Shown here: one piece after another, positions 10,499 to 30,116 of the stretch | How the letters are laid out: each line of letters begins with the position of its first letter | How positions within the stretch are numbered: position 1 is the stretch's first letter | Position numbers and translations under genes: made by a program | Notes under the pieces: generated by a model | What the model saw: only the letters and a program-made list of their open reading frames with translations | What the model was told of the DNA's origin: nothing | The model's database searches: none | Assembly: GCA_003415625.1 (NCBI GenBank) | Contig: PYIU01000009.1 | Span: forward strand, 248,001 to 312,000 | Length of the DNA stretch: 64,000 nt | Reading direction: 5' to 3' | Source: Aquanectria penicillioides | Lineage: Eukaryota > Ascomycota > Sordariomycetes > Hypocreales > Nectriaceae

Positions 10499-12142
10499 CT
10501 CCCCGTTAAAGTCTGCGCGAATGGTGGTGCAGAGAAATCTGGATCTCTGACGTACCCCTTGGACGATGGCTGCAACTTGGCGAGCCGCGATGCAATCGTC
10601 ATTAGCTTCAACTACAGTTTATGGCTACTGGGCTTCCTTGCATTGCCAAGTGCTGGTGTACAGGGCAATATAGCAATTCAGGACACTTTGGCTGCTCTTT
10701 GCTGGGTCAGGGCTAACGCCAAAGCTTTTGGAGGTAATGTCTCAAAAGCCATGCTGTTCGCATAAAGCGCAGGTGGAGATAACACCTTCACCGTCTCAAC
10801 ATTACCCAAGCGAAGTCGCTTATTCCCGCTACGGTTATCGAATCGGGAGGTGGACAGGACATGACACCTTACGAGACAGCCCAATATAGTGGAGAAAGTT
10901 TCGCGAATACTGAGTTGGTGGTCTAAGGTAATGTGGATCAATCTGTCATCAGGTTGGTCAGGGACCACAGAGACATAAGAAATGAACAGGCGGTTTTCTT
11001 TAACTAATTCTTATTTTTGAAATTCTGAATTCCTTGCATTTAGACTCTATTGAAGTCCCAGTGCAGCCCCTTATGACACTTCTTTATTTATGACTTTCCG
11101 CCTTGCATTCCTTTTCCTCTTTTCTTCTAGGGGCACTCCAGAGCTTCTGATCAGATGCTCTAACACTCTCCCAAGTTGTTCGCAGCTGCTTGGAAAGGCT
11201 ATTCGGTCGTCACCAAATCCGCTTACCCTATACCCTTCTGGGTGGGGTGTATGTTTTGGCCAGTGTCCCCTTCCACCAACAAAATACGCTTAATTGTAGC
11301 GGAACAGACGTACGTATTCTGCTGTTCTCGATGGAATTAGAGTCAAGGAAGCACCTTTGGAGGTCGGATCACGAGTTCCCTTGATTGCCGGATCAAGTGC
11401 GTGTCCATGCTCTCCCAATTTATGACTACTTCTGACAATATCAGCTGAGCATGACTCAACACTGTCTGTCTGTTCTGTCAGTTCTTCTACCACAACTCGA
11501 CATCCTCACAGAAGAAAACCAAACCTTATTTCTTTCAAAATGGGGCAAATTCGGTCCCGCAATGGGCCGAGTGTACCCACTGTCACTTTTCAACAGCTCC
11601 GGGTCATCTGAAGCTGTTGTAGCAGCAATCTGGCATATTATTACTGTCTCTAACTTTACTTACCTCGCATATAAAGCTCTTCGGTCGACAATTGATGCTG
11701 GATCACCTGCATTCGGTTATAGGTTCAATCATATTCCATCATGCCCTTGGCTATCGGTGAATGGAGAGGAATTTTCGAATACGAAACATGCCCAACTGTT
11801 TGGATCCACTCATTTCTCAGAACTTCCCTTTGTCTTTGGAAATCTTGATAATCTACCTTTTGGGAATGGTTCATGCGATTCCACGGAAAGCGAGTGAAGA
11901 TTAGCAAGATTTTGATCGACTCTGAGACTTCTATGGGTCTCACGGGGAATGCCTCTACACCTGGTCAAAACTGGCCAGAATTTGATGAATTCGAAGTAAA
12001 AAGCTTAGAAATAACAAGCCGGACTAAGGCAACAATTCTAGACTTCTCCGAGTGTGAATTTTGGGACGAAATCTGGGTTCAAATGGGTGGTGTTGCAAGT
12101 ATTTGGCTACCTGGAACAAATAGTACTTCTAGGAAGCAATGA
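10499..12142 (+). pseudogene. Carboxylesterase type B relic with repeat insertion
   Basis: Remains of a type B carboxylesterase/lipase. The N-terminal part is absent. Conserved pieces in order: LASRDAIVISFNY, GNIAIQDTLAAL..WVRANA..FGGN, the nucleophile elbow region, ESGGGQDMTPYE, GIRVKEAPLEVGSRVPLIAG, and the catalytic-His segment FGSTHFSELPFVFGN followed by TGNAS..GQNWPEF. Lesions: TAA at 10763-10765 stands immediately before SAGGD where GQ-SAGG is expected; a frameshift follows near 10800; a dispersed repeat (10925-11293) separates the two halves; and another frameshift occurs near 11875. The catalytic Ser codon and His codon survive but no complete protein can be made. Confidence 0.85.
10925..11293 (+). 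repeat. Dispersed repeat, less mutated copy 2
   Basis: About 370 bp homologous to 1300-1680, inserted in the carboxylesterase relic. It contains normal C and G where copy 1 has T and A, for example GACTCTATTGAAGTCCCAG here against GACTTTATTAAAGTCCTAA there. No clear target-site duplication or terminal inverted repeat was found at its edges, so the boundaries are good to about 10 bases. It may be a solo terminal repeat or a fragment of a longer element. Confidence 0.78.
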
Positions 12143-12494: not shown

Positions 12495-13418
12495 TTACAA
12501 TGAGAATCCAGCATCAATGACAACATTGACTCCCGTCATGCTCTTAGATTGTGCCAAACCAAATACTTGCTGAGCGACGTCCTATAATTGAGCTTCAAGT
12601 TAGCGTGAAAGAAAAGTGAATGGGTTTCAACGACCATGAAGCCTCACCTCGAGTTCAACAAATCGCTTTAATTTAGTCTTTGCCCTGTGGCTTTCCTTCT
12701 GTTCATGAGAAAATCTAGCCGACCAATCCTGTAATGTATAAGATAAAAGCCAAATGATGCGTACGAAAATGGACTTTACCGTCTGCAACAGGCCTGGCGA
12801 AACACAGTTTACTCTGATTTTGGGCGCGACCATCGAAGCCAGTCCCTTGATCATATGTATCTGCGCTGCTTTTGTTGCCGAATAGGCCTTGGAATATTAG
12901 CCTAGTTGTGAGCGGGAACGGCCTGTGGCAGTTACCAAAGAGCTCCCCATTCCGGTCACGCCAGCCAGCGAGGAGGTGGTGATAAATGATCCTTCGGATT
13001 GGTCAAGATATTTTTTTGAGGCTGAGAGCACCCAGAGATGAGACTTGACATTCATATTGAATGCACGGTCCCAGTCTTGCTCAAAAACATTATCCTCGAT
13101 TGAAGTGGTGTCACGAAATTTAGTCCACCCGCCATTAGAGAAAACAACATCGATGCGTCCCATCTTATCATAAGTCTCCTGAACTAGGCGATTGATATCA
13201 GATGGAGATTCTAAATCGGCTGCAATGGCAATGTAGTCATTGCCATTGTGCTGAGTGGCACATTTCTGTTTAGATAGTTCATCAAGCAAGCCTTTTGCGC
13301 GGTCTTCATTTTGATGATAATTTACCGCAACGCGAAATCCATTTTGCGAGAACAATTTTGCAACTGCAGCACCCAAACCTGCAGTTCCGGCTGTAACAAG
13401 GATCACAGGAGTCGACAT
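12495..13418 (-). CDS. Short-chain dehydrogenase/reductase 1 of the catabolic cluster
   Basis: NAD(P)-dependent SDR, 252 aa, from ATG 13418; the longer open frame upstream begins with GTG and is not needed. Introns are 12888-12935, 12729-12779 and 12582-12647. Removing them gives an uninterrupted frame through SSLAYSATKAAQIHM and the C-terminal MTGVNVVIDAGF. The cofactor loop reads VTAGTAGLG, a variant of TGxxxGxG with Ala for the first Gly. The catalytic Ser lies in ITTSSLAG and the Tyr-x3-Lys pair in YSATK. It is transcribed away from the P450 gene; the shared 460-bp promoter holds one perfect TCGGA-N3-TCCGA site. Exact substrate unknown. Confidence 0.88.
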
Positions 13419-13878
13419 GATGTTAGAAGTTGATCGAGGCACCGTTGGAACAAAAACACTACTTTGGCGAAGATTCCGCCATCCCGGCTATTAAATGACT
13501 CCTCACAAGTGACTCACGCTAGAGTGGCAGCCCAGTACTACTGGAACAGAAAATAAAAAGCAATTGTTGGATATCCCAAACCGACTAGCCGATAATAATT
13601 GATTTCGGCTGATGCGACGTAACACAACACCAAGATAGATAACCCCGCAGCTTCGGACGCTCCGACACCCTAACCGTCAGCAATTCTCCGTACCCACCAT
13701 GTGTTGGTTCCGGCAGATGCTTTCAACTCGGATTGAAAGCTTTATGGGAGCTGCTTGACGCAGATAAAAGACCAAATTTCGGTTCTGATCAATTGACTGG
13801 TTGGGATACAGCCTTCGACACACTTTGATTTGAATATCCACCAAAGACAATCTTGATCACGACCGCCAAATCCTTATC
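13419..13878. other. Bidirectional promoter, SDR 1 and P450
   Basis: The 460 bp between two divergent start codons carry the cluster palindrome at 13653-13665, 214 bp from the P450 ATG and 235 bp from the SDR ATG. Such a central position would let one site serve both genes. Confidence 0.6.
13653..13665. promoter_or_regulatory. Cluster motif site 1, TCGGA-CGC-TCCGA
   Basis: Perfect inverted repeat TCGGACGCTCCGA. It contains CGG-N5-CCG, the architecture bound by dimeric Zn2Cys6 regulators. It is one of five exact copies found, all in intergenic DNA of this cluster. Confidence 0.75.
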
Positions 13879-15696
13879 ATGGCAAAAGTCTATGATGCAA
13901 CTACACTCAATGTCCTGCTTGCAGAGAAGCTGCAGGGCATGGAGAACATGGTGCCTGTGATAACCACAGTTTTGATTGCACTATTCTCCTATATTGTTTA
14001 CAAGGTACGTTTGATGCTCAACCCCTCCTACGATTTCAAGCCCTTGTCTCCGTCAGCCACCAACATCCCTAGCCATTGCACTACCTCCAGAATGATGCTA
14101 ATTGGACTAGGTTGCATTCGCCACAGATGTTCCGCACATCAAAGGACTCCCAGAGATTCCTGGCGCAGTTCCTGTCTTCGGTCATCTCCTCAAACTGGGA
14201 GAAGACCATGCCAGCGTTTGTGAGAAGTGGTGGCGTCAGTACAACCAATCTGTGTTCCAGATCAAATTGGGGAACACAAGAGCCGTCGTTGTAAACTCAT
14301 TTGAGGACTGCAAGAAGATGCTGCTCGGAAATCAAAATGCAGTGATTGATCGGCCAACCTTGTACACGTTCCATGGCGTCATCAGCAGCACGCAAGGCTT
14401 CACAATTGGCTCATCCCCCTGGGACGAATCCTGCAAGAAAAAGCGAAAGGCAGCCGGTACTGCACTTGGAAGGCCGGCTTTGAGGAACTACTATCCCATG
14501 TTCGACTTGGAGAGCTACTGCATCCTCAGAGACCTCAAGAGGGACAGTCGCAACGGAGAGGTTGAGATCAGCGTGCGACCATACATCCAACGCTATGCTC
14601 TGAACACAACCCTCACCCTGTGCTACGGTATTCGAATGGATGCTGTCTACGATACTCTTCTTCGTGAAATTCTCGAGGTCGGCTCTGCGATCTCACTCCT
14701 GCGTAGTGCATCTGAGAATTTGCAAGATTACGTGCCAATCTTGCGTTACTTCCCCAATAACGACAAGAATGCTCGCTCTAAGAACCTCCGCGATAGGAGA
14801 GATGCCTATCTTAACCACTTGCTGGACAAAGTGCGAGAGATGATCAAGCAAGGCACCGACAAGCCGTGCATTTCGGCAGCTATTCTGAAGGATGAGGAAA
14901 CAAAGCTGACTGGTGTGGAAGTCTCCTCCATCTGCCTCTCTCTCGTTTCTGGTGGCTTCGAAACTATTCCGGGTACCCTGACCTCTGCGATTGGATCTCT
15001 CTCAACCCCCGAAGGACAAATCTGGCAGGATAGGGCATACGAGGACATTAAGCGATATTATCCTGACATCCGAGATGCCTGGACAAGCAGCTTCGTGGAA
15101 GAAAAAGTTCCCTATGTTAACGCAATCATCAAGGAGGCAGGACGCTACTACACCGTCAGCTCCATGAGTCTTCCAAGAAAGACCGTGACTGAGGTCAACT
15201 GGAACGGCGCTGTTATCCCCGCAAAGACCATGATCTTGATCAATGCTCAAGCCGGAAATCACGGTGAGAACTTCATTTCACATCCCCATATATACATGAC
15301 AACGCACTAACATAACTAGATGTTGACCATTTCGGTCCTGATGCCGGCAATTTTGATCCGGAGCGATGGCTCAAGAGTATTGACCCCCCTGTTGAAGCAG
15401 AGTCAAGCGGTCTCGGACACCTGAGCTTCGGAACTGGTTCTCGTGCCTGTTCCGGACAGTACATTGCGTCGAGACTTTTGTATGTTGCGCTGATCCGTAT
15501 TTTGGCGTCGTACAAAATCGTAGCCAGCAAGGAGGAGCCCCCAAACACTGACTATGTTGATTACAACCAATTTAAGACGGCATTGGTGGCTATCCCTAGG
15601 GACTTCAAGGTGAAGTTGATTCCCAGAGATGACTCTATGACGAGCGATGCTCTCCATGCAGCTGAGGAGCGTACTAAGGAACACTACAAGGAGTGA
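13879..15696 (+). CDS. CYP504-like cytochrome P450 (phenylacetate-hydroxylase type)
   Basis: Membrane-anchored P450 of 551 aa. Introns are 14005-14110 and 15264-15319. The N-terminal membrane segment covers residues about 24-42 (VPVITTVLIALFSYIVYK). After it comes the proline-rich hinge KGLPEIPGAVPVFGHLLKLG. The I-helix reads SGGFETIPGT, the E-x2-R is in IIKEAGRYY, and the haem-ligand motif FGTGSRACSGQ is intact. The segment YYTVSSMSLPRKTVTEVNWNG and the C-terminal DYNQFKTALVAIPRDFKV closely resemble fungal CYP504 enzymes, which hydroxylate phenylacetate or hydroxyphenylacetate. That family resemblance is from memory of known proteins; the true substrate in this cluster is inferred only to be aromatic. 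The gene shares its promoter with SDR 1. Confidence 0.9.
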
Positions 15697-16222
15697 ACCA
15701 GATTATTGGCAGAAATTCTCAATGTAGTCGGTGGACGGACTAGTCCGATAGATAGAACACAGATAGAGTTGGCCTCAACTGTAGTGTTTCAAAATAGGAA
15801 AGAATTCACATCAAACTCAGTGATCCAAAACCGCTTTCGAATACGTGGGTATATAAAATACAAAAAAAGGAAAGCTCACACGCTTTTTCTACTATTATGT
15901 GATATCCACCATCAAGTTGAAGATTGAGCCAGATAAAATATTGTGGCTGAACCTTTGATACGTAATTGCTTGACTTTATTTGGCCCAGAGAATGTGGCTG
16001 GAATCACAAGTGGTGCACGCTTGAGTACGCCGTCGTTATCACCGGCCCGGCGGCCCATCCGACACAGCCGACAGCATCCGGATCCACCAAAAATCGCCGG
16101 TAGACGTTCCGTCTCGTCCTTATCAGTTTAAAAAGTACCAGGTTCTGATAGATATTTCAGGGTAGAGGCTTATGTGCACAAACAACAGCCACAGAAAACA
16201 GGATCAATCAACATACACCACC
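15697..16222. other. Promoter region of SDR 2
   Basis: It contains a 12-bp palindrome CGGACTAGTCCG at 15736-15747 (CGG-N6-CCG, one base longer than the cluster motif) and a degenerate cluster site at 16050-16062. Short open frames here have no motif. Confidence 0.5.
16050..16062. promoter_or_regulatory. Degenerate cluster motif before SDR 2
   Basis: GCGGCCCATCCGA keeps CGG-N5-CCG and a perfect right half TCCGA, with two mismatches in the left half. It lies 161 bp upstream of the SDR 2 ATG, similar to the spacing of the exact sites. Confidence 0.5.
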
Positions 16223-17385
16223 ATGTCTTCTCTTGACGTCACCAGCTTGTTCTCTGTTCGCGGTTATGTCACTGCAGTTACCGGAGGAAGTAGTGGTCTA
16301 GGATTTATGATTTGCAAGGTATGGGTGCACCAATTCAGCTGCCCTATGCCATTTCAGAAACCATGTACTATGTTGCGTTGATTATAATTGACAACCCTGG
16401 GTAGGGCCTAGTTTCGAATGGCGCTAAAGTCTATTTGATTGCCCTGCCAAGCGACCCGATTGCCGAGAGGGTTGAGGAGTTGAACAACCTTGGAAAGGCG
16501 TCTGGGGGAAGTGCGATCGGGTATGTATGTCTAAGTTAACTGGGCCTCTTCCTTCGAGTTAACATTCCTAGCCTTCCATGCGATGTGTCCTCCAAGGACG
16601 AAATAGCCGCTGCAGTGGCGTATATTAATGAGCGTGAAGACCATCTCGACGTTCTCGTGTCTAATGCCGGCATCAGAAGGGATCCACCTGTCCAATGCAA
16701 TGTCTTGACAGCCCCTGTCCTGGAATTGCAGTCGTCCCTATGGTCTTCATGCCATTCTGATTGGGCAGATACATTTTGCGTGAACACCACAGCGCATTAT
16801 TTCATGTCTGTTGGCCTCTTGCATCTGTTGGAGAAAGCATCGAGACTCGATCGCAGCGGCCCAGACCGACCATTGGGTCGAGGTGTCGTTATCATCACAA
16901 GCTCCTGCGCGAGCATGCATAATGTGACCAATGTTGACTTAACTAGCTATGCTTCTAGCAAAGCCGCAACTGATCATCTGGTTCGACTATTGGCTGCCAA
17001 ATTCAGTCGGTTCTATGTACGAGTAGCTGGCATCAACCCAGGATGTGAGTTGCAACCAATCGACGAAGATGTACTTCGTCCACCAAAAGTTGAATAATCT
17101 AGCTAACAAATTACAACTAGTTGTTCCAAGCAATATGAATCCCGTTGGTGCAGAGGGGAATATTTTCAGTGCCCTTTTTGATCAGGTCCCCGCGAAACGA
17201 GCTGGGGATGAGAAAGATATCGCTGGCGCTGTTCTTTACTTGGCTAGCCCTGCTGCGGTATGAGCACTATCCCTTTTTCTCAAGCTTAGTTAATAAATCT
17301 TATTGACTGTTTTTAGGCATATATTGATGGAATATCTCTTTGTGTTGACGGCGGGCGTGTCTTGGTAGCAAATGGGCAGACTTAG
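16223..17385 (+). CDS. Short-chain dehydrogenase/reductase 2 of the catabolic cluster
   Basis: SDR of 296 aa. I choose ATG 16223 (context CACCACCATG) over the in-frame ATG at 16172. Four introns: 16319-16404, 16521-16571, 17045-17120 and 17258-17316. The cofactor motif is VTGGSSGLGF, followed by DVLVSNAGI (NAG motif), catalytic Ser in IITSSCASM, Tyr-x3-Lys in SYASSKAA, and the C-terminal ISLCVDGGR typical of the classical SDR family. An insertion of about 20 residues follows the NAG motif. It is probably an oxidoreductase of a pathway intermediate; substrate unknown. Transcribed in the same direction as the P450 and the amidase. Confidence 0.88.
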
Positions 17386-17834
17386 AAAATAGCTGATACT
17401 ATATAAATCGCCAATCTCGGCGTAATTGAGCATTCTTCGATGAAAAAATTCTGCTGACAGTTTTGATTTAATCATCTTCAACTAGGCCGTAAAGGCTTCA
17501 AACTACGTATTAAAACCTGATAGCCTCAGATTGTGCAGAATGGATCCTGGCGCTTGCGATGATTGCAGGCGGGGTCCTTCGCCTCGGCAGTGCGGTCTCC
17601 ATCGATTAACTGCACGCAAAGGCTAAAAGTTCCGCTGGGCAAGTAGCCGCGGAGTGGGGTCCGTTATTATTGACATTTGTCCTCTTTAAAACGTCGGATC
17701 GTCCGAACACGCGGGTCGGAGGGAACTATTTCTTGCCCGAAGCGAGCGACCGATGACCTCACAGCACGAACAGCAGAGAAGCCCGCATCGTAACCGCTCT
17801 TTTGCACAAGTACGTAAGAATACAATCCATTACA
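17386..17834. other. Promoter region of the amidase gene
   Basis: Contains the exact cluster palindrome at 17694-17706 and a further half-like TCGGA at 17715. A short upstream ATG at 17752 opens a frame that does not join the amidase in phase, so I do not use it. Confidence 0.5.
17694..17706. promoter_or_regulatory. Cluster motif site 2, TCGGA-TCG-TCCGA
   Basis: Perfect copy of the inverted repeat, ending 129 bp upstream of the inferred amidase ATG at 17835. Confidence 0.75.
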
Positions 17835-19594
17835 ATGTCGATAGTTTCACTAGCCGATGAATTAAAGTATAGGGCCCTCTGAATCTCACCCTGTCTCGCG
17901 GTGGCTAACCAACATTCAGGTCCACTCTCACCATCACGGATTTGCATCAGATAGCCGAGCAGCTACAGATCAAGATCAACAATCAGAAAGATGCTGACGA
18001 CTATTTACTTCTATTGAAGTCCTTGGACTCTGTGATGCAGGATGTCGAAGACTGGCCAGACTACATTCCTCCAGAGCTAAAACCGTACCCCACCACTAAA
18101 CCCCGCACATTCTCCAAGCCCAGTCAAACTTCCAATCCGTTCAATGCTTGGAGCCACCAATGTCACTTCAAAGCCTCAAAAACTACCAGCAACCTGCTAG
18201 ATGGCCGTACCATTGTGATCAAAGACAATATCTCGGTTGGAGGTTTGCCGACTACCCTCGGGACCTTACCTGAACTCTTTGCTGAAAGACGATCCTATCC
18301 AATCTCAGACATTGACGCTTCCGTTGTCTCTCGTGTCCTAGCTGCAGGCGCAACTATCAAAGGATCAGGGACTTGCGAAAGCTTTTGCGCATCTCCTTTG
18401 TCATTTACCTCTCCGAATGGTCCCGTTCACAACCCGCTTCAGCGAGGATACACGGCAGGTGGAAGTAGTAGTGGCTGCTGTGCTATTATTGCAGCACGTG
18501 TATTGGCTCAACAACATGGTACAGCCGTCGGGGATACGGCAGAATTGGCCATTGGTAGTGACCAAGCAGGATCTGTTCGCATTCCTGCTTGCTTCAACGG
18601 GTTATATGGCCTAAAGCCTACCTTTGGGCTCGTTCCGTATACCGGGGCGGGATCTATGGCGGCAATGATCGACCACTTAGGACCGATTGCTTCAAACCTG
18701 GAAGACATTGCATCTTTGCTGAAGATTATTTCTGGATATGATGGATTCGATCCTCGAATGACTCCTGAATCGCCTATCATCGGTCAGGTTAAGGACTATC
18801 CCACGCTTCTGGCGGATTTTCGAAAGTCCCTGACAATTGAACCTCAATCAGGAAAAGGGATGAAGATTGGTTTATTAAAGGAATCATTTGAGATCCCCGG
18901 GGTCTCACCCAAGGTCAGAGATACAGTTCGGCAGGCCGCAACAAGTTTCTTCCAGTCAGCTGGAGCCCAAGTTGTGGATGTATCAATACCCATGCATGTC
19001 GAAGGGCCTACTATTTGGACTGCATCGACAAGGCCTTCTATGTCGCGATGGCTATGTCAAGGAAAGTCCTCTGGCCATCTCACCTATTCGGCGCCACACA
19101 TTCAAACCACATGGCCACCCACACAAGAGACTTATGAATTGTTGACACGAAGCAATCCGGCAGTGGTCAACATTATCTTGAGCGAGCAATTTGCGCAGCG
19201 TAAGTTTGGATCTGCGGTTGAGGCAAAGGCCCATCGCAAGGTATTCGAGCTACGTGCAGCATACGATCGAGCACTTGAGGATGTTGATGTGTTGATTACT
19301 CCATGTGCACCTTCACCTGCCATGCCTCACCCAACTGCGCTTGCTGATGAAAGTAGCAACTCTTCAATTCTGGAGAGGCTGAGTGTAGCTGTGGGAGTAA
19401 CTAACAATACGTGCCCATTCAATGTGACTGGTCATCCAGCAATCAGCGTCCCTTGCGGATACTCGGGGGAATCCGAGCATACCAAGGTGAAATTCCCCAT
19501 TGGTATGCAGATTATTGGAAAACGGTGGATGGATGAAACAGTTCTTATGGCATCTGCGTTATTTGAGCACGGCATGAAACTAAGCACCGCTTAA
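17835..19594 (+). CDS. Amidase-signature-family hydrolase
   Basis: Hydrolyses a C-N amide bond. The long frame from 17942 has no ATG near its start. A first exon of 32 bp (17835-17866) joined over intron 17867-17919 (GTATAG...CTAAC...CAG) supplies one in phase and gives 568 aa. The catalytic Ser-cisSer-Lys triad is visible: Lys in TIVIKDNIS, Ser in the glycine/serine-rich TAGGSSSGC, and the nucleophile Ser in GSDQAGSVRIPAC. The C-terminal half (PCGYSG..FPIGMQIIGKRW) is also typical. Length matches fungal amidases. It lies inside the motif-bearing cluster, which suggests the pathway substrate or an intermediate carries an amide. The specific amide is unknown. Confidence 0.9.
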
Positions 19595-19796
19595 ATCTTA
19601 TTTTCATCCATAGGACAGCATATCTAGGGGTGGAATGATGATGTCGAATAGCATTGTTTAAATTCACCAAGTTAACCCCCGTTGACTGTTTATTAAAGCT
19701 TGATGTGATTGAAATCTCCAACCTTTCTGTACTGCATGGTTACTTGCGACAAATCTTATCTTGTGGCTTATCTGGTACGCTGTGGCGCTTAGCTAC

Positions 19797-20801
19797 TCAG
19801 AAGCTTGCTAGAAACTTGTTAATCTCCTGGTCCATCCAACCTATATCCTCTTTGCTGCTGCCAGACCCAGCAAGATGGCCCCATACAGAAGGGATTACCT
19901 TCAAGACTGCATTAGGTAGCATTCGAGATTCCCTCTCGCTGGCTTCCCATCTAAAATATTGGTCCGATTGGCATGGCATCAACAAGACGCGGGCCTTGAT
20001 CTTTGATAAAGCACCATTCAAGTCATTTCCCTGAAGGCCCTCACAGACTGTAATATCTCCTCTCTGCCACATTCCAAGCTTGATCAGCAGGTCTTTTGGA
20101 TGCCAAGTATCATAATTTGTTCCGGTCACATCATGGTCCCAATCCTCTAAGCTTTGATATCCCAACTCTCTGTAAAGTTGCTGGTCGAACCAATCCGCAC
20201 TGGTCAGCCAAGCGGAGTATGATTTTCCAAAGGCTCTAAGTCCACGCGGGGCCTTGAATGTCTCTGGATGGTGACAATCATCCCTATAGTCGACGGAATT
20301 CTCCAAGGCTGTTTTTGGACCTTCCAGGAACTGAAAGTTGTGTCTACTCGTTCGAGCAGATGAGCAGATGATGACCGCATTTCGAACAAAGTTGGGGTAC
20401 ATTGCCAACCAATGGTATGTACATTGGCCGCCCATAGAGAAACCGGCAATGACATCTAGTGCTTTGATAGAAAGATGGCGCGTGATGAGCTCATGCTGTG
20501 CGCGAACGCAGTCTCTGTAGTCGAGAGATTTTGGGAATCCACTGGTGTTTGACGGACTCGATGATTCACCATTGCCGAATAAGCCAACTACGATAACCCG
20601 AAAGTCGTTCAATGCCCCATTCGCAAAATTCAACATTGAACGAACTCTGCCCCGAAAGCATGTTGGGATAAGGGCTACTTTAGCTTTGTCCGGGCTGAGA
20701 TCCAGATATGCTAGTTTAGCCTCTGGAATCGTAGTTCCATCCTGAAAGGTGAATTCAGGCAAGGAGAAGTACTTGATCTCAGGCTCTGTGGACGGCGACA
20801 T
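19797..20801 (-). CDS. Alpha/beta hydrolase, homoserine acetyltransferase-like
   Basis: Alpha/beta-hydrolase-fold protein of 334 aa related to homoserine O-acetyltransferase (MET2/MetX) and meta-cleavage-type hydrolases. I start at ATG 20801; the frame extends further only through GTG/TTG codons. The nucleophile is in AGFSMGGQ, the acid in MPCQSDQYF and the His in WGHLAGSG, so the triad is complete. Fungal clusters often carry such proteins as hydrolases and not as methionine enzymes; the setting between an amidase and an amidohydrolase favours a catabolic hydrolase. Two perfect cluster motifs lie 134 and 203 bp upstream. No intron. Its 3' end faces the amidase 3' end across 200 bp. Confidence 0.85.
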   Translation of the reverse strand: MSPSTEPEIKYFSLPEFTFQDGTTIPEAKLAYLDLSPDKAKVALIPTCFRGRVRSMLNFANGALNDFRVIVVGLFGNGESSSPSNTSGFPKSLDYRDCVRAQHELITRHLSIKALDVIAGFSMGGQCTYHWLAMYPNFVRNAVIICSSARTSRHNFQFLEGPKTALENSVDYRDDCHHPETFKAPRGLRAFGKSYSAWLTSADWFDQQLYRELGYQSLEDWDHDVTGTNYDTWHPKDLLIKLGMWQRGDITVCEGLQGNDLNGALSKIKARVLLMPCQSDQYFRWEASERESRMLPNAVLKVIPSVWGHLAGSGSSKEDIGWMDQEINKFLASF

Positions 20802-20934
20802 CTTTTTGGTGGAATGAGGAGACACCAAACGAGAGGCCGGTTTGGGGCAGCATCAAGCGGGGTTATACTCGGCTTAGAAAACCGGCGTCTCGAACGAGTC
20901 TCAGCGGTCCCCCACAATTCCCCGGTGCAAAATG

Positions 20935-20947
20935 TCGGAATGTCCGA
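20935..20947. promoter_or_regulatory. Cluster motif site 3, TCGGA-ATG-TCCGA
   Basis: Perfect copy of the inverted repeat in the hydrolase promoter, 134 bp from its ATG at 20801. Confidence 0.75.
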
Positions 20948-21003
20948 CCGGATAGGCATTCCCTTTAGTTAAGTCCGTCCAATAGTCATCTCGACAAAAG
21001 AAA

Positions 21004-21016
21004 TCGGACGTTCCGA
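21004..21016. promoter_or_regulatory. Cluster motif site 4, TCGGA-CGT-TCCGA
   Basis: Second perfect copy in the same promoter, 69 bp (start to start) from site 3. The whole 13-mer is an almost exact palindrome. Confidence 0.75.
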
Positions 21017-21241
21017 TATTGGTTGGAGAGCTTCGCCACACAATGGTCATGTTGCGATAAGGGACAGGACATGCAGACCTCTCAATTGCTGCCACGATCA
21101 ACTGCCAAATACTGGACTAAAAACTAGGAAATGAATGGGAAGGCGGTATGTTCTCAGTGTTGCGGCTCAAGCTAGGCTCTCAGAGAAAGGAGACATATTT
21201 GATAAGTCGGCCTCAAACTCAGTGTTGCACATTCAACAGAC

Positions 21242-22860
21242 CTATTCCCCAAAGGTCTTGACCCCTCCTGACCAGGTCTGCAACACTCGAGCTTTCAGCA
21301 ATGATTCAGAGGGACCAAACCCATCGAGAACTAGGAAATCAGCCCTGAACCCCGGTTTCAAACTTCCTGTCCATGATTCAGCGAATCGAGAGAATGCAAC
21401 ACCCGAGGCAATCGCTTCAAACGCCTCCAGCAAGCTCAACGCGCCTTTTGGGTTCACTTCCATAGTCAAGGCTGGATCAATAGCAGATTTTCTTGTCGCG
21501 GCGTTATACAAATTCGGAAAAGGGAGATGCCTTGCTGTTGGGGTATCTGTACCGATTGCTATACAAGCATTGCCGTGGGCAAATCCTCGATATGGAAACA
21601 CCCTCTTCCACGCGTTGGGGGGCGGCAGGGTTGGATAGGCCTTTACTAAGGCCGGGTCGCTTTGTACGGGTTGAATTGATACCGTAATACCAAGATCGCC
21701 AAGTCTTTTTGCGTCTTGTTCTGTTGTTAGCTCCAAGTGCTCGATTCGATGTCTTCCATGCGGGGCTTTGGCATTCGCGGTTGAGTTGATGGCTTGGTTA
21801 ATGGCAACGTCTCCGGGGCATGAATAGCGACCTGCATGCCTGCTGCAGCGACTCGTTTAATAACCAAATCCATAGTGTCTTGAGGCCATAGAGGCTTGAC
21901 AGGGTCGGAATGGCGACCAAAGGGATAGCTCAAAGCCGCTGTATAACCATCCGGGACACCATCGGATATCAACTTGACACCAACAATGCAAAATTCTTTG
22001 CATTTTGACGGATGCCATTTCTCGTTCATTAAGATAGCTTCTTCCACATGCTTGAGGACATTCTAGAGGTTTAGATCAGAAGGGATAATCCAATACGCAG
22101 CAATGTGAATTGGGATCCCATTTGTGTCTCGAAACAGCACCAATGCTTCCCAGGCGCTTTTATCCATCGCCACGTCAATTACGCCAGTGTATCCAGCGGC
22201 CGAATAAGCATCAAATGCGCTTGCAAGGGCCTCTTGTTTCCCTTCGGTCGTGCTCTTGCCCATGAGATGTGGCCAGATAAATCCCAATTGGGCTTCCTCA
22301 GCCAGTAACCCAGTCGGATTACCATCCTCGTCGCACGGCAGATGAGTCTCGCCAAGCTTTTTAATCTCTTCTCTGGGTAACTCTTTCAGAGCTGCAGAAT
22401 TTCACCATGTTGAATGAAGGTCCAACACCTCCACGAAGATAGGCCGTGGGTCTAAATCGTCCAGTATGATGGCGAGAGCCAATCTATCAGTGCTAGGCAG
22501 ATGCCATCCGCGACACAAAAGTCGCAAAGTTCTGAGTTAGCCTTGGCGTATTTAGAAATTCTCTGTCGAATCTCCTACAGTGGCCTACATCTACACAAAT
22601 CTAGTTTCTGTAAAGACAGTCCAAAGAAGAGCATATGAACATGGCTGTCGATTAAGCCGGGGATGACGGTATGTTTCTGCAAGTCAACCACCTCTGCGCC
22701 CTCTTCTTTTGCGTGCGCCACCAATTCGTCCTTCTCCATACCCATGTGTTGTATCTGCGATCCCTTTATGACCAAACAGTCACAACCATCAATCCCTCCG
22801 AAGAATCTTCCGTTCACAAATACGCGGGGCGCTATCCCTGAACGCGGTTCAAATGACTCT
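21242..22860 (-). pseudogene. Broken amidohydrolase (YtcJ-like) of the cluster
   Basis: Minus-strand relic of a metal-dependent amidohydrolase of the YtcJ / N-substituted formamide deformylase type. Pieces in order: VIPGLIDSHVHML (metal-binding H-x-H), LLAEEAQLGFIWPHL, CIVGVKLISDGVPDGYTAAL (the region of the bridging Lys), MQVAIHA then GDVAINQAI, RIEHLELTTEQDAKRLGDLG, CIAIGTDTPTARH and a natural C-terminus LQTWSGGVKTFGE. Lesions: a stop after CRCRPL at about 22575, at least two frame changes between 22330 and 22575, an in-frame TAG at about 22063 (SDLNL-stop-NVLKH), and a frameshift in the CCCC run near 21824 (HAP/GDV). The metal site segments survive but the frame is broken. The start is not certain; the frame extends upstream of 22817 to about 22860. 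Confidence 0.82.
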
Positions 22861-22972
22861 GCCTGTCGAGTGCGAAATGGGGATCAAAGCATAGAATAGC
22901 GATGTATGCTTTACCTTGATTGAGTTATAGTCGCTAATGTTTATTTCTGTTGACCATGCGCGTTATTACACG

Positions 22973-22985
22973 GCGGTGTGTCCGA
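22973..22985. promoter_or_regulatory. Degenerate cluster motif before amidohydrolase
   Basis: GCGGTGTGTCCGA keeps CGG-N5-CCG with a perfect right half and two mismatches in the left half, about 110-150 bp upstream of the broken amidohydrolase. Confidence 0.4.
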
Positions 22986-23019
22986 CAATGCAGTTATTCC
23001 CCGGTCTTCAAATGCTCCG

Positions 23020-23032
23020 TCGGAGGTGCCGG
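23020..23032. promoter_or_regulatory. Second degenerate motif before amidohydrolase
   Basis: TCGGAGGTGCCGG keeps a perfect left half and CGG-N5-CCG; the right half has two mismatches. Paired with 22973-22985 it resembles the double site of the hydrolase promoter, but decayed. Confidence 0.35.
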
Positions 23033-23865
23033 CAATCAATAGTCACGAGTTTCAAAGTATGACATGAAAATAGGAAGTTGCTGGCGGCCAATTTAGTCAT
23101 GTATTTACGTAAATAGCCCGGCTCCGACGCGTTCAGGAGACTTGAAGTCAACCAACTCGCTCTTTAAGTGTATCTTGACACATTGTCCTGACCTGTCTTC
23201 CTATTCGTGGCGAATATTCCCCAATTCTCATGGGCCTAGTGACATTGTCGCAGATCCAGGTCCTCCTGTCCAATGTATTAATTTGAGATTTGACTCCCCA
23301 TGTCTACCTCTCAAAGTTCTTCGTAAACTTCAATAATCACCGAGTAGGACGATGGATCGACCTCACAGACGGCATACCATTCTCACATTGAAGGGCGGTG
23401 ATGTCATCGTATAGGATTTGCAAGATTCCATTAAGTAAAAGGTCAAAGCTATTGGAATAACAGAAATCCGAACCGTCGTATTTAAAAGTTGGCCATTTGA
23501 GTGGGATAATGTTCGAGGCGTGAACAAACACTCTTCCAGTTATTGTTAAATTTCACAAGCAATCGCTCAATCCCGGGTTTCATCTCTAAAATCGCATGGT
23601 CAATTGGATCAATAAGAACTGTGTCAAATATATCGTTACATGTGCAATATTAGGTTTGGTCTTATGTTCTATCATCTTATTCGCTTCTTGATATGTCAAC
23701 GAGCCTAGTTTCTTCTGTTTGCAAAGTGTTGAATCAAATCACAAAATCTAGGACAGAGACCTTCCAAGATAGGCTTGACAGTTAGTGCGTTTGTTTGTTA
23801 TTGAAACCTCCTATACATGATGATATTTCTAATTTCAATGCACGTGCGCCTAGTTATTCATTTTC

Positions 23866-25251
23866 TCAAAAGACCGACCAGAATCTCTCAGAACCACAAC
23901 AACTAATTTTTGCAAGAACGAGGAATATTGCACTCAGAGCATAGCTTGCCACAGTAAATGCAATGAGGCCCCAATATTTATTTCCACATGCCGTCAGAAT
24001 TGCTCCAGCAATAGGGATGCCCGTGAACATGCTGAACCCAAGAAGATTAGGATAATTCTGACCAATTTGACAAAAGAAAAGTGCTGACCTGATGCTAACA
24101 AGGATGTATGCAGTTGCATACCATCGGCCAAAAGACTCAAGACGACAGAGTTGACCTACACAAACTGGGGCCAGACTCACATTGCTGCCACTGAAAAAAC
24201 CAAATGAAAGCGAGAATATGATCATCATGGCTTGACTCTGTTTTGCTGGTAGCCAGAAGCAAGCAGTGCAGATTGCGCATCCGGAGAGCGTCAGAATCAA
24301 TACATTGAATCGTCCAAACCTATCAGCGTAGTATCCTGGAACGCAGCGACCAAGAATTCCACCTGCATTCACCAGTGAAAGCAGCAAGTACGAGATTTCT
24401 GTCGAGTCGCTTTGGTCAAGTGCGTAGGAAGGGAGATATGAAAAGGGCACAAACAACCCCCATTCCATGAAGAAAACTCCTATACTTGTAAGAGCTAAGG
24501 GTGCATGGCGGAATATGGAAAAGTCAGGGCGAACTGTGGCCATCGTCAGAGGCTTCGGCAGAAATCGCGGGCGAACAAGTATGCCAGCAATAGCGGACGT
24601 AACAATACAGAGAAACGCCGCGATCCGAGTTGCCCAGATGAATCCAACTTGCGAGAAGAGATTTCCAAGCATAAGAGGAAATACTATGCCCCCAACCGCA
24701 CCACCGGAAGATGCGATACCGGTGGCAAGTCCTCGACGTCGATGAAAGTAATGGGCCACAATTGACACTGCCGGAGCAAAGACGAGAGAAAGACTGATGC
24801 CACCGAGGACACCAAACACAACCATGAAGTGCCAATACTCCTTGCAGACACCTAACAGAAAGAGAAAGACAATGGTCCCGATATTGCCGCAGCAAATAAC
24901 GGCTCGCGGTCCTCTAGCATCAAAGATGGGGCCAACTTGGATCCCACAAAAAAAGGTCAGGCCGCTGTATACTCCAAATATCCATCCGATACTTAGATTG
25001 CTATAGTCTTGGAGTTGATTCCTTGAGAGATGGGCTTGGAATGTTCCTATGCTATTCATCAGGCCCATGGAACCAAACAAGGCCATCCAGCTGCCGAGAA
25101 CTACACTCCAAGCCCTCAATCCCCCTTCAGGATATGTGAGTGTTTCTTCGCTCCCAGTTTCATCTTGATCAGTAATTTGGGAGGTAAAGTCATCAGTCTT
25201 TTCGGAGGTTGAGTTGTCATGAGACTCCTGCGATTGTTGATTGGTACTCAT
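23866..25251 (-). CDS. MFS carrier, monocarboxylate-porter type
   Basis: Twelve-helix major-facilitator protein, probably plasma-membrane, of the fungal monocarboxylate (MCT/MCH) group. A polar N-terminus of about 40 residues precedes the family hallmark YPEGGLRAWSVVLGSW at the first helix; further signatures are GPIFDARGPR and PGYYADRFGRF. The frame is open throughout, but 24032-24088 has a GT...CAG intron-like structure of exactly 57 nt with a branch-like CTAAT. Splicing it joins AYILVSIS to MFTGIPIAGAIL, as in related carriers, and gives 442 aa instead of 461. I favour the spliced form. Likely imports the cluster substrate or exports a product. Its promoter is shared with the RidA gene and contains motif site 5. 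Confidence 0.88.
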   Translation of the reverse strand: MSTNQQSQESHDNSTSEKTDDFTSQITDQDETGSEETLTYPEGGLRAWSVVLGSWMALFGSMGLMNSIGTFQAHLSRNQLQDYSNLSIGWIFGVYSGLTFFCGIQVGPIFDARGPRAVICCGNIGTIVFLFLLGVCKEYWHFMVVFGVLGGISLSLVFAPAVSIVAHYFHRRRGLATGIASSGGAVGGIVFPLMLGNLFSQVGFIWATRIAAFLCIVTSAIAGILVRPRFLPKPLTMATVRPDFSIFRHAPLALTSIGVFFMEWGLFVPFSYLPSYALDQSDSTEISYLLLSLVNAGGILGRCVPGYYADRFGRFNVLILTLSGCAICTACFWLPAKQSQAMMIIFSLSFGFFSGSNVSLAPVCVGQLCRLESFGRWYATAYILVSIRSALFFCQIGQNYPNLLGFSMFTGIPIAGAILTACGNKYWGLIAFTVASYALSAIFLVLAKISCCGSERFWSVF

Positions 25252-25791
25252 CCTTGGAAGTCTTTTGTTATCGGTACAGAAAAGACAGGCATAGAACGAA
25301 TGATTGGTGAGGATATAAGCCTAAAACGAGAAGGAAACACCGAAATTAGAGGCTATGCAGAGAACCAGTTACCGATGGGCAACTTTCTCCCTCGGCCCTC
25401 GGACGACAATCGGAGTTTCATGTCATCACGTTGCTTCATTTCCCGCAACGAACCGACGTCGCTGGCGGCTCATCCGACTCAAGCGCAGATTTGTACCCAA
25501 TATGGGTAAGTCTTCTACCTCAGTGGATCGCCAAGTTTTGGTCAATTTAGACCGTTGAGCTTGACTTCACGATGTCGGAGGGTCCGACCGTCGGTAGCCC
25601 CGACGCAACTCAATCCGCCATGGTGGACCATAGATCTGGAGATCGAGCATCAGCAGGGTTCAAAAGCCGATCGATCCAGTACTTAAAATAACTCTTGCGT
25701 TGATAATTTACTTTGATTGTTGACGAAGCTATTCACACCTTTAACCATCTTGATCTTAAATCTCTTCACCAACCTAATTACTTTATACACA
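25252..25791. other. Bidirectional promoter, MFS and RidA
   Basis: 540 bp between divergent starts with the exact cluster motif at 25575-25587, 205 bp from the RidA ATG and 324 bp from the MFS ATG. Open frames in this stretch lack motifs. Confidence 0.55.
25575..25587. promoter_or_regulatory. Cluster motif site 5, TCGGA-GGG-TCCGA
   Basis: Perfect inverted repeat between the divergent MFS and RidA genes; the last of five exact copies. Confidence 0.75.
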
Positions 25792-26241
25792 ATGTCTCCC
25801 AACGGACAAGCCTTCTTGCTCGACCCAGAAGCTCCTGCTGGGCCTACCCGCTATCCGCATGCCAGAATCGTCTCGGCAAATGCGCGTACAATTTATGTCT
25901 CCGGCATTGCATGCCGCCGCCCAGACGGATCATACCCAGGCGTCATAGAGAATCCAGACGGATCTTATACTCTTGACATCCGGGCACAAACCGCCGCTGT
26001 TCTCAAGAACATCGATGAGATTATCAAGGGCGCAACCAATGGTGCAGGAGGAATATTGAACGCGATTGATTCGGTGGTTTACTTGTTGGATATGAAGTCT
26101 CAGTATGCGGGCATGAATGAGGAATGGAACAAGGTGTTTCCCGACCGTGAAAGCGCTCCTGCAAGAGCAACAATTGGAGTTAAGGAATTACCCGACCCAC
26201 GACTTATTGTTGAGGTCAAGGTCGTTGCACTCGTTGAATAA
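25792..26241 (+). CDS. RidA/YjgF-family deaminase
   Basis: Intronless 149-aa protein of the RidA/YER057c/UK114 family, which deaminates reactive enamine/imine intermediates as a trimer. I start at ATG 25792 (MSPNGQAFLL). Visible features: RYPHARIV, IYVSGIACRRPDGSYPGV, DIRAQTAAVLKNIDEIIKGA, and the family C-terminal block APARATIGVKELPDPRLIVEVKVVA with the conserved Arg and a Glu near the end. The CRRPDGSYPG loop resembles the 2-aminomuconate-deaminase subgroup more than housekeeping RidA. In this cluster that fits deamination of an amino-substituted ring-cleavage product; this is an inference, since no ring-cleavage dioxygenase is seen nearby. Confidence 0.88.
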   Translation: MSPNGQAFLLDPEAPAGPTRYPHARIVSANARTIYVSGIACRRPDGSYPGVIENPDGSYTLDIRAQTAAVLKNIDEIIKGATNGAGGILNAIDSVVYLLDMKSQYAGMNEEWNKVFPDRESAPARATIGVKELPDPRLIVEVKVVALVE

Positions 26242-26551: not shown

Positions 26552-28878
26552 TCATTTTGTATACAAAAGGTCCTTATACCTTTCCACAATTTGTGCTATC
26601 ATCCTTTCGAGTTTGGCCGCTTGCGAAAACTTCACGGTAAGCACCTTGAACAGCTCAATCGACAATTCAAGATCATCAATCGCTTTTGTGTCCTCCAAGA
26701 CTGTAACGAGATTATCCGGTTGTGCCGTGATGGCATAAACAAGCGATACCGTCGACGTAAATATCGCAAGCAAGTTCAGCCAATTGTATGCTAATTTGCC
26801 TTGCCGATGCATATTGATAGCCTGTCGTAGCGACATTGAGGCCGCTTCAGCCAGAATTTTGATCCGCCTCTGATCCAAAGTCGGAAACAGTGGAGTCGGT
26901 CTGTAAAGCATCGCAAGGTGCGTATAGTAGTTGAAGTCATACCAGTTACTCGTCAAGTGAGGTACCTGGTCATTGACATCGGGGAGAGGGAAAGGCATAT
27001 TGCGGCGCCATTCGATCAGCTCTTTATGGAGAGAATGCAATATTTCTTCGCGCTCTGAAGCTTCCAGTCTTGAAATCCTGTTGCTGGAATATACCTGCGT
27101 CGCTATTTTGCCTGCAATTTTTCTCAAGGCCAGGATATGAAGAGGAACAGCCATGAGCGATGGGTGAAGTGTGTTGCGGGGTTTTATGCCTTCAGCGTCA
27201 ATCTCGTCATCGTCTGCATCAGTAAAAGGCTATTTTGATATCATCAGTTCATTTCTTTAGCGTCTATGTTTCCATAGTCAGGCATTCAAGCCCTTACCTG
27301 GACATCAATGTCATCTTCATTTAAAGCAAACGGCCTTCCGAGTGCCACTGACACGACGCTTCAAAATAGTCAGTGGGAACAAGAAGATAGAAAGGCCCAA
27401 AATTTTAGTTCTTACCGGTCCATCATGTAAACACAAAAGAATAGTCGCTTTCGTCGTTCAGCGACGTCGCATGGAAGGCCTTCATAAGTTGAAGAGGTGT
27501 GCAGACCCATCCCGAGGGCAATGCGGGATGCAATTCCCACAAGAAACCAGGTATCTGTGAAAAATGAGCCTTGTGTTGAAATGTCAAGATTAGATGAGGC
27601 TTACCTGGCCCTAGCTGGTTAAAGAATGAATATGACACTTGAAGCATAATGACTTCTAAAGAAGCCTAGATTGACGCGTTAATCCAGTAATCAGACAATA
27701 CCGAACATGTCATACCATTTCTCCAAAACCAAGAGCCGCTTCAAAATATGTTAGGGCCTTATTATAGTACAGCATAGACTCTGATTCTTCAGCCAGCGAC
27801 ACCGAGCAGTACGCAGTGGATCCAATGGCAAAAATCATCCATATTCTGAACAAACAGAGAGGGGACTGGGCCAGCGGTCCTTCTGGGTTGTCGAGGATGT
27901 CCTGGAGTGTGGACAGGAATTCGCTTTGATGGACGATAGGGTAGAGCGTGTGAGAGTGAGAAAAGTAAAAGTTGACCCAGCGACCGATTTGCTCTCGATC
28001 TGTGGGGAGGTTTAGCTGCGTTAAAGCGTCGTCGGTGCCCGACATTTCCGAAAAGTAAGGAAAGTCGGCGAATATTATCGGGTCACAGAAAAGGTTGCTG
28101 TTGAAATTGGTAAAGATGTTGGGGCTGAGAAGCTCTGAAGGCGAGCCAACAGCAAGACTAGGCATCGGGTGATGGTCGTCGCTGGTGCCAAATATGAACT
28201 CGGATTTATCTGGGGTGAGGCGCCGAAGCACCATCTGTGTAAGTTTTGCAAAGGAAATCCCGGACGTCGACCCGAGGTGTCGCTCGGCCGTCGCTTCTAA
28301 TGATAAATTCTTCATCTCTTCGTTGAGCGAATGCGGTGGTTTGACCGACATCTGAGGAGGGGTCTCTCCCTGGGCGGGCTGAATGTCCAAGACTCCCCAG
28401 GCCGAGTCATGGACGGGAAATGTGGGAGAGTCGATATGATTTTGGTTGATGACGACGACATCCTCGGAATCCACAGCCGCGCAGACGATTTCGGCCGCAG
28501 CTGAATGCTCTACGTTCCTTTCACTATCGGATGCCTGTGATTTGGACGCCAAGGAGTTCTCCAGGTCCTGGATCCGCTTCTCCAGGCCTCGGACATAGCT
28601 GTGCGATACGAGTAAGCATTGTGTATCGTCTTCACGGGCACGCGGTGCGGCCATCTGGGCTTGGTCCTGGACCGCGATGGAGCAGATGAGGCCTAAGGCG
28701 ACGGTACTCACGCGATAGGATACGAGGCTGTCTGACGATCGTCATCGAGAAAGCTGCACGCCACGTGTGCTCTGTTACAATTTTCGCACTGCGGCAGAGT
28801 CCTGTCGCAGCGCTTTTTTCTTCTATGGCATCTAGAGCAGGATGCTCGGGCTTGGGCGGGACCAAAATGAGGCGTCAT
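26552..28878 (-). CDS. Zn2Cys6 transcription factor closing the cluster
   Basis: Intact regulator of 662 aa from ATG 28878, six exons; introns 28599-28711, 27666-27715, 27555-27604, 27359-27415 and 27230-27297. Residues about 14-42 form the zinc cluster (CSRCHRRKKRCDRTLPQC..C..C). A short leucine-rich coiled linker (YVRGLEKRIQDLENSL) follows, as in dimeric C6 proteins. The middle-homology region of the Fungal_trans type is evident from WVNFYFSHSHTLYPIVHQSEF through LGMGLHTSSTYEGL..ERRKRLFF and ALGRPFALNEDDID. It sits next to the motif-bearing cluster, so it is a candidate for the protein that binds TCGGA-N3-TCCGA. No copy of the site was seen in its own promoter, so it may be constitutive or regulated otherwise. 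Confidence 0.9.
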
Positions 28879-30116
28879 TGTCAGTCACGCCAGGAGGTTA
28901 TTGGAAGAGGATGCAGACCGCTGCAAACGGGAAAGCCGGGTATTCGTACATAAATATGTTTCGGGGACTGGACAGCTTATCTTGATCTTCCCCGCACTGC
29001 TGTGTCCCCCGCCGATATGGAATCCTTGATCCGAGGAGTCGATGTATGTATGCACCATGCGTGCCACCCACCCAGGGCTCTCCTGCTGCTGCTGGGTTGG
29101 ACTAGGTTGGGCTAGGGAACTACCGAATGCGACAATCCATCTACCGGTACCCTTGTTGGCGTCTGCTTTGTCGTTTACGGGCTTGGACGAGGAGAAGTGA
29201 TGCGCCTAGGGGGATGTCCGGGGGTGGAAGAGATAGCCATATGACAGGTAGTTTTTCTTTATCTGCAATCCCATGGCATTGTTTTGAATCCTATCTTTTC
29301 CCCAATCCATTCATTCTCAAACGCCAATTAGGGAATAGGCATCGTTACATCATCCCGAATTCCCGAACCCATACTTGGCCCAGTCAATGGCCTACCCTAC
29401 ATCGATTTTCGGGATATGCAAAGGGACCATGGAGGCAATAGGTAGTTGGACCTATAGGGAATTTTCCGTTCTAGAATTTAGCGGACGCTGGAATACTAAT
29501 ACGAGATTGTTTCTGTGTTGGAGCTTCGTTTGAAGGTTTTTGTATTCTATGTGAAGTGAGTTTGTCGCAACCTGTCCCTTGGCTTGAAAGCTCACCAAGC
29601 GTGATGTGGAATCGATCATATCACAGTGAAACCCGAGTATTTCACCATGAGTAAGACAGACAAGACCAAAATCTATTCAGCAATAGAATCCGTCTTTGAA
29701 TAACAATATACTATCTGCTATAACTACAACAACTCTTGTGCACCTCAATGCCCAAGAGCCCAGCGTGCCGGCCTTGATACAACAAGGAGGTGGAGCCTAA
29801 TAAAGGGGGCCATGGAGCTGGGATGAGACATTTGGCCAGTCAAGAGGCACGAATTCGTCACACAAATCACCCGACTTCAGGGCCCACCATAGTGTGACTC
29901 TCGACAGGATGTCGGTTAGAAAGCCGCAGTGAGAAGCCGCCTAGCACCAAAGATGCTTGATGGCGGAGATGCCTCGCCAACCCACCTCTGCTGCAGTCTG
30001 GGGGAACTACCACAGACCTGCTCATTGTGTTTCTCATGCAAACGTAGTTGGCTCGGCTGTTGATGAACATCTCGTCGACTTGCCCAAAGCGACCAGAGGA
30101 ACATCTGCGGGGAACC
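28879..30116. other. Intergenic, 1.2 kb between two divergent regulators
   Basis: Contains the promoters of the Zn2Cys6 genes on either side. Small frames (29127-29441, 29867-30118) have no motif or splice support. No cluster motif was found here. Confidence 0.5.

Follow-up and report, generated by a model that had tools for sequence, protein, structure and literature searches.

A CGG-N5-CCG palindrome predicted to be the operator of a catabolic-type gene cluster in Aquanectria penicillioides

Zinc-cluster (Zn2Cys6) regulators such as UaY (the purine regulator of Aspergillus), GliZ (gliotoxin), Gal4 and Put3 bind as dimers to inverted CGG-type half-sites. The half-sites of UaY and GliZ also read TCGG...CCGA, and the spacers are 6 bases for UaY, 3 for GliZ and 10 for Put3. 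A passage of PMC11534201 gives a spacer of 11 for Gal4 and reports CGGN6CCG as the site of Ppr1, in genes of uracil biosynthesis or purine catabolism (PMC11534201). Here we describe a 64,000-nucleotide stretch of the Aquanectria penicillioides genome (GenBank assembly GCA_003415625.1, contig PYIU01000009.1, positions 248,001 to 312,000; hereafter the window), where the palindrome TCGGA-N3-TCCGA recurs in the promoters of a catabolic-type gene cluster. The palindrome resembles the sites of UaY, GliZ, Gal4 and Put3 in its inverted CGG-type half-sites and differs from them in spacing, with 5 bases between CGG and CCG instead of 6, 3, 11 and 10.

Our results indicate that TCGGA-N3-TCCGA is probably the operator of a pathway-specific Zn2Cys6 regulator, with TF2, encoded at the end of the cluster, as the most likely binder. 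An earlier description of this DNA, made by a model from the letters alone (the sequence-only reading), had proposed the operator of one pathway-specific regulator. This interpretation is supported by the spacer specificity, by the promoter-only placement, by the limitation of the sites to the cluster, and by the Zn2Cys6 gene at the cluster end. The sites, their exact spacing, their placement in promoters only and their clustering in the genome come directly from computation. TF2 is most likely the binder, a dimer and an activator: two copies would bind the palindrome together, with one CGG (TCGGA) half-site recognised by the zinc cluster of each, and this homodimer would switch the cluster on in the presence of the inducer. 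The genes under the operator would be SDR1, the P450, SDR2, the amidase, the alpha/beta hydrolase, the amidohydrolase (now broken), the MFS transporter and RidA.

The 64-kb window holds five exact copies of the palindrome, compared with a mean of 0.07 in 100 dinucleotide shuffles, none of which (0/100) gave five. This is close to the ~0.06 chance copies per 64 kb that the sequence-only reading had estimated. The copies are as follows (unstranded):

13653..13665, exact operator TCGGACGCTCCGA, SDR1/P450 divergent promoter, 235 bp to the SDR1 ATG and 214 bp to the P450 ATG
17694..17706, exact operator TCGGATCGTCCGA, amidase promoter, 129 bp to the ATG
20935..20947, exact operator TCGGAATGTCCGA, alpha/beta hydrolase promoter, 134 bp to the ATG
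21004..21016, exact operator TCGGACGTTCCGA, alpha/beta hydrolase promoter, second copy, 203 bp to the ATG
25575..25587, exact operator TCGGAGGGTCCGA, MFS/RidA divergent promoter, 324 bp to the MFS ATG and 205 bp to the RidA ATG

Start codons thus lie 129-324 bp away from the exact sites, and the full-window scan found no copy beyond those starting at 13653, 17694, 20935, 21004 and 25575. According to the gene models of this analysis, all five are intergenic and fall in one 12-kb stretch of the cluster; the longest open frame across any of them has 85 codons. The divergent pairs SDR1/P450 and MFS/RidA each share one gap. The sequence-only reading had found the same five copies at the same positions, and had placed them between genes, in the promoters of SDR1/P450, the amidase, the hydrolase (two copies) and MFS/RidA; our gene models agree on each point.

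To the exact sites we added the degenerate and weak copies of the cluster (also unstranded):

16050..16062, degenerate operator GCGGCCCATCCGA, SDR2 promoter, 161 bp to the ATG, one half perfect
22973..22985, degenerate operator GCGGTGTGTCCGA, upstream of the broken amidohydrolase, one half perfect
23020..23032, degenerate operator TCGGAGGTGCCGG, upstream of the broken amidohydrolase, one half perfect
25465..25477, degenerate operator GCGGCTCATCCGA, MFS promoter, ~214 bp to the ATG, perfect TCCGA half, an extra site in the MFS/RidA gap
25591..25603, weak CGG-N5-CCG TCGGTAGCCCCGA, adjoining the exact copy at 25575
28928..28938, weak CGG-N5-CCG, 50 bp upstream of the TF2 ATG

The sequence-only reading had listed degenerate copies with one perfect half each at 16050, 22973 and 23020. 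All three are real, and the list overlooked those at 25465 and 25591 and the weak one at 28928. The last is a possible site of TF2 autoregulation; it could also be chance.

The nine cluster genes leave eight gaps, of which six bear promoters and two are convergent. With expectations taken from the genome rate, the six promoter gaps (3383 bp) contain 10 CGG-N5-CCG cores versus 0.64 expected (P 1.7e-9), with at least one core in each of the 6/6 gaps and exact 13-mers in 4/6. The gene bodies of the cluster contain one core versus 2.35 expected. No core was found in the two convergent gaps, which by themselves carry little weight because only 0.10 was expected there. When CGG-Nk-CCG was counted in the cluster gaps for k=0-20, N5 led with 10 and N8 came next with 4; the PPR1/UaY-type spacing CGG-N6-CCG occurred once against these 10, and the GliZ-type CGG-N3-CCG had no occurrence in the cluster gaps. 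For the full half-sites, k=3 (5 bases between CGG and CCG) is the sole spacing of inverted TCGGA-Nk-TCCGA for k=0-25 in the window, where other arrangements of TCGGA over the same range (2 everted and 6 direct) show no spacing that recurs within either kind. A single spacer length and sites confined to promoters are what points to an operator.

A scan of the genome (53.76 Mb) found 43 exact sites, 5 in the cluster and 38 outside it. There is no genome-wide excess of the site, since a control pattern (the site read backwards) has 73 copies. The CGG-N5-CCG core occurs 10128 times, which, divided by 256 for the four further fixed bases (even base use assumed), predicts ~40 exact sites; the 38 outside sites are therefore background. 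Of these, 20/38 lie in open frames of at least 150 codons, and positions drawn at random from the same loci do so in 48% of cases. At the outside rate, the probability that a site has at least 4 further sites within 11.9 kb is ~2e-10, or ~9e-9 after allowing for all 43 sites. The sequence-only reading had called for such a scan and had named copies scattered at the same density as the result that would refute it; the outside copies proved to be background. With outside sites at background and 5/43 copies in 12 kb, a motif scattered over the genome was rejected, and the exact operator is limited to this cluster. Beyond this genome, one collection (viral contigs) was scanned and gave nothing. 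The word regulon, used in the sequence-only reading, should be narrowed to the cluster itself.

The gene of the candidate regulator is the last of the cluster on the right:

26552..28878, minus strand, TF2, Zn2Cys6 and Fungal_trans regulator, 662 aa, six exons, candidate operator binder (Fungal_trans from precomputed domains of relatives)

Searches for TF2 relatives and paralogues and the cysteine alignment used a 654-aa version, eight residues short at one exon edge; comparison with solved structures used the first 99 residues, which are the same in the 654- and 662-aa models. The best relatives are from Ilyonectria, Dactylonectria and Neonectria (64-65% identity). Ilyonectria belongs to the Nectriaceae, so these relatives make a host of that family probable, and the identities are too low for the same species. 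In an alignment of TF2 with 29 relatives chosen among those listed with PF00172, none of the six zinc-cluster cysteines varies. TF2 is without a close paralogue in this genome: after TF2 itself, the highest-scoring match has 24% identity. Of the solved structures, PPR1 (1pyi, E 4.9e-7) is the best match to the TF2 zinc cluster with its linker. Since the reported Ppr1 site is CGGN6CCG and PPR1 is this best match, a sister spacing of 5 bases is plausible for TF2. The sequence-only reading had named two Zn2Cys6 proteins as possible binders. The one at 26552-28878 (TF2) is much the better candidate, and the one at 8732-10415 (TF1) is less likely, given its frame break.

A linked Zn2Cys6 gene appears to be kept with the cluster enzymes in many other fungi, judging indirectly from size-matched contigs, locus tags and fused gene models. 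For the contigs, lists of relatives (best 120 each) were compared, and contigs were matched across lists by equal size, gene order not being seen. The named rows used numbered 104 for TF2, 114 for the P450 and 53 for the hydrolase; 16, 6 and 67 rows, respectively, were left out, those of the hydrolase nearly all lacking an organism name and one of them being named without a contig. Among the matches listed, relatives of TF2 and the P450 had at least 31 contigs in common, those of TF2 and the hydrolase at least 17, those of the P450 and the hydrolase at least 18, and all three at least 6; 42/104 TF2 rows matched at least one P450 or hydrolase contig. Locus tags agree, for example in Neonectria magnoliae (QQZ08_007996 for TF2, _007992 for the P450), Fusarium nematophilum (ACJZ2D_003748 for TF2, _003753 for the P450) and Neonectria ditissima (g3847 for TF2, g3845 for the hydrolase). 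Direct adjacency comes from gene models that fuse neighbours. In P0071 a TF2 relative is joined to a relative of SDR1 (62% identity), in P0120 (which also has a tyrosinase domain) to one of RidA (68%), and P0140 unites relatives of the P450 and of SDR2 (the latter 71%), with the same order as in this cluster. By eye, P0155, P0172 and P0178 show similar fusions of neighbours. These six public models are probably annotation errors.

Several observations weigh against TF2 as the dedicated reader of a cluster-wide operator. SDR2 and the broken amidohydrolase carry half-perfect sites only, and the promoter of TF2 itself has only a weak copy. The reported spacer of PPR1 has 6 bases (PMC11534201), versus 5 here. 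Among the matches listed, 62/104 TF2 rows match no P450 or hydrolase contig, which says little on absence because the lists hold the best 120 clusters only; in Ilyonectria robusta, the TF2 row is on a contig of a different size from that of its P450 and hydrolase rows. Two close pairs of exact sites exist elsewhere in the genome, where 0.018 pairs would be expected within 700 bp, and an operator confined to this cluster leaves them unexplained. Finally, other proteins could read the site: a second Zn2Cys6 gene, TF1, lies 2 kb outside the left cluster end, and an unlinked regulator is conceivable, if unlikely.

With regard to the two pairs, the first (C10:111568/112241; 9168-9853 of locus L006) consists of exact sites 673 bp apart at a fungal-transcription-factor-like gene near a GST-like gene (by eye), and one of the two sites falls inside the longer model of the transcription-factor-like gene. 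A third exact site on the same contig, at 97874, is within an MFS-like gene model. The C10 sites possibly belong to another regulon of similar specificity. The second pair (C13:1367944/1368601; 5945 and 6602 of locus L008) has an identical spacer; the stretch around it is partly repeated, and at the sites themselves the gene finder put no gene.

It is quite unlikely, in our view, that the operator belongs to TF1 (8732 to 10412, Fungal_trans_2 class), either now or before TF1 broke. TF1, a Zn2Cys6 protein ~2 kb past SDR1, does have a zinc cluster (PF00172, E 7.1e-10), and PF11951 is present in both its parts, but the PF11951 match is split across two reading frames, and on this ground we consider the frame broken. 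An assembly error is possible at this break. The promoter-site map also stops at SDR1, short of TF1, and relatives of TF2 were found linked to the cluster enzymes, linkage of TF1 relatives not having been searched. A regulator encoded elsewhere, for example a broad PPR1/UaY-type regulator using inverted CGG half-sites, is favoured by other TF2-like zinc clusters in the genome (14/57 matching stretches cover the zinc cluster, TF2 itself excluded) and by a reported Ppr1 site that is one spacer base off. Such a broad regulator should leave excess sites elsewhere, whereas the outside sites are background, and in the window the inverted half-sites keep strictly to one spacing; we consider this explanation unlikely. 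As for sites that arose by chance or as a trace of local duplication, with no regulatory meaning, the motif is short (13 bp) and has 38 copies elsewhere at background. This explanation seems extremely improbable in view of the clustering (P ~9e-9) and the placement of all five copies in promoter gaps. No two of the five copies have the same three spacer bases, and their flanks resemble each other only loosely, so the sites are not copies of a longer repeat, and a longer repeated element was rejected as their source.

The cluster genes, over which TF2 is our preferred regulator, were modelled exon by exon and scanned with Pfam, as the home-made gene finder had merged neighbours:

12495..13418, minus strand, SDR1, four exons, open throughout (PF13561, 1.5e-42)
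13879..15696, plus strand, CYP504-like cytochrome P450 with three exons; among the best relatives are proteins named phenylacetate 2-hydroxylase
16223..17385, plus strand, SDR2, five exons, open throughout
17835..19594, plus strand, amidase (PF01425), two exons; closest solved structures 3a1k/3a1i, titled Amidase
19797..20801, minus strand, alpha/beta hydrolase, MetX-like
21245..22958, minus strand, remnant of an amidohydrolase (PF07969) that contains in-frame stops and frame changes; outer coordinates approximate
23866..25251, minus strand, MFS transporter, single exon
25792..26241, plus strand, RidA/YjgF-family protein; closest solved structure 6izh, 2-aminomuconate deaminase

These genes look like a cluster for breakdown (and uptake), and their content suggests a nitrogen-containing aromatic as the substrate class, perhaps a compound of the arylacetamide type. 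Among proteins that bear the name phenylacetate 2-hydroxylase, the best-scoring have 84-87% identity to the P450, and a protein named CYP504E1 has 82%, all names being those of the sources; no papers on CYP504E were found in the literature searched. Structures 3a1k and 3a1i, closest to the amidase, come from Rhodococcus. No ring-cleaving dioxygenase turned up among the cluster genes in the Pfam scan. An 82-residue piece of the amidohydrolase has genome paralogues of at most 51%. With this gene broken, the strain may have an impaired pathway; the remnant and the half-good sites upstream of it look as if gene and site decay together.

Outside the cluster, a stretch resembling a carboxylesterase remnant (by eye only) lies between TF1 and SDR1, at ~10540-10800. 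Positions 1-2000 of the window have a GC content of 25%, with TpA/ApT of 1.32 and (CpA+TpG)/(ApC+GpT) of 0.71 versus 0.61 and 1.36 in the remaining window, a pattern like that of repeat-induced point mutation (RIP). The neighbours at 30000-64000 include a nucleotide-sugar transporter, P450s at ~35 and ~60 kb, sugar transporters, an Sde182-like hydrolase, a Gfo/Idh/MocA oxidoreductase, a PALP enzyme and another Fungal_trans gene, and no exact operator was found in this part.

The sequence-only reading knew of no published regulator with this exact site, and we likewise found none in the literature searched. Publication of the exact site or of the cluster was not found there either, where subscription papers were largely outside reach, and both may be described elsewhere; a search with looser half-sites returned only unrelated potato work. 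Operators of this kind are known; we did not find this spacing or this pathway described, and the assignment of the regulator is likely but unproven. We see an even chance that a pathway kept together in Sordariomycetes and Eurotiomycetes is controlled by a dedicated regulator through a CGG palindrome with a 5-base spacer, with neither the spacing, for any zinc-cluster protein, nor the pathway found in the same literature. If true, this would provide an exact site and a regulator for a catabolic cluster that is seemingly widespread in ascomycetes and unnamed so far in what we searched. The site would then set the limits of the pathway (SDR1 to RidA/TF2), giving a handle for orthologues and for the inducer, and would be a clean 5-base case for the spacing code of zinc-cluster proteins.

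The sole match to the CGG-N5-CCG string in that literature was a paper on AtrR of Aspergillus fumigatus, which notes it among several spacings in one promoter, in a passage that does not show it as a binding site. The AtrR targets, cyp51A and cdr1B, are unlike the TF2 cluster. With regard to gene content, the published clusters in passages of PMC7842363 and PMC10512309 were considered as a match and rejected, for they have other gene sets (e.g., a metallo-beta-lactamase, or 3-hydroxyanthranilate dioxygenase with ACMSD). The 3-hydroxyanthranilate cluster often includes a YjgF/RidA gene (PMC7842363). In overall build, FDB1 and other xenobiotic-induced clusters of Fusarium verticillioides, and the 3-hydroxyanthranilate and nicotinate clusters, likewise bring together hydrolases, dehydrogenases, a transporter and a regulator. 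At the level of the regulator, the closest likeness is to PPR1 of Saccharomyces cerevisiae and Candida albicans, which shares with TF2 a Gal4-type zinc cluster followed by a linker of near-equal length (one alignment gap) and, by eye, a coiled-coil-like stretch after the linker, and which, like the regulator predicted for this cluster, has inverted CGG half-sites in genes of one pathway.

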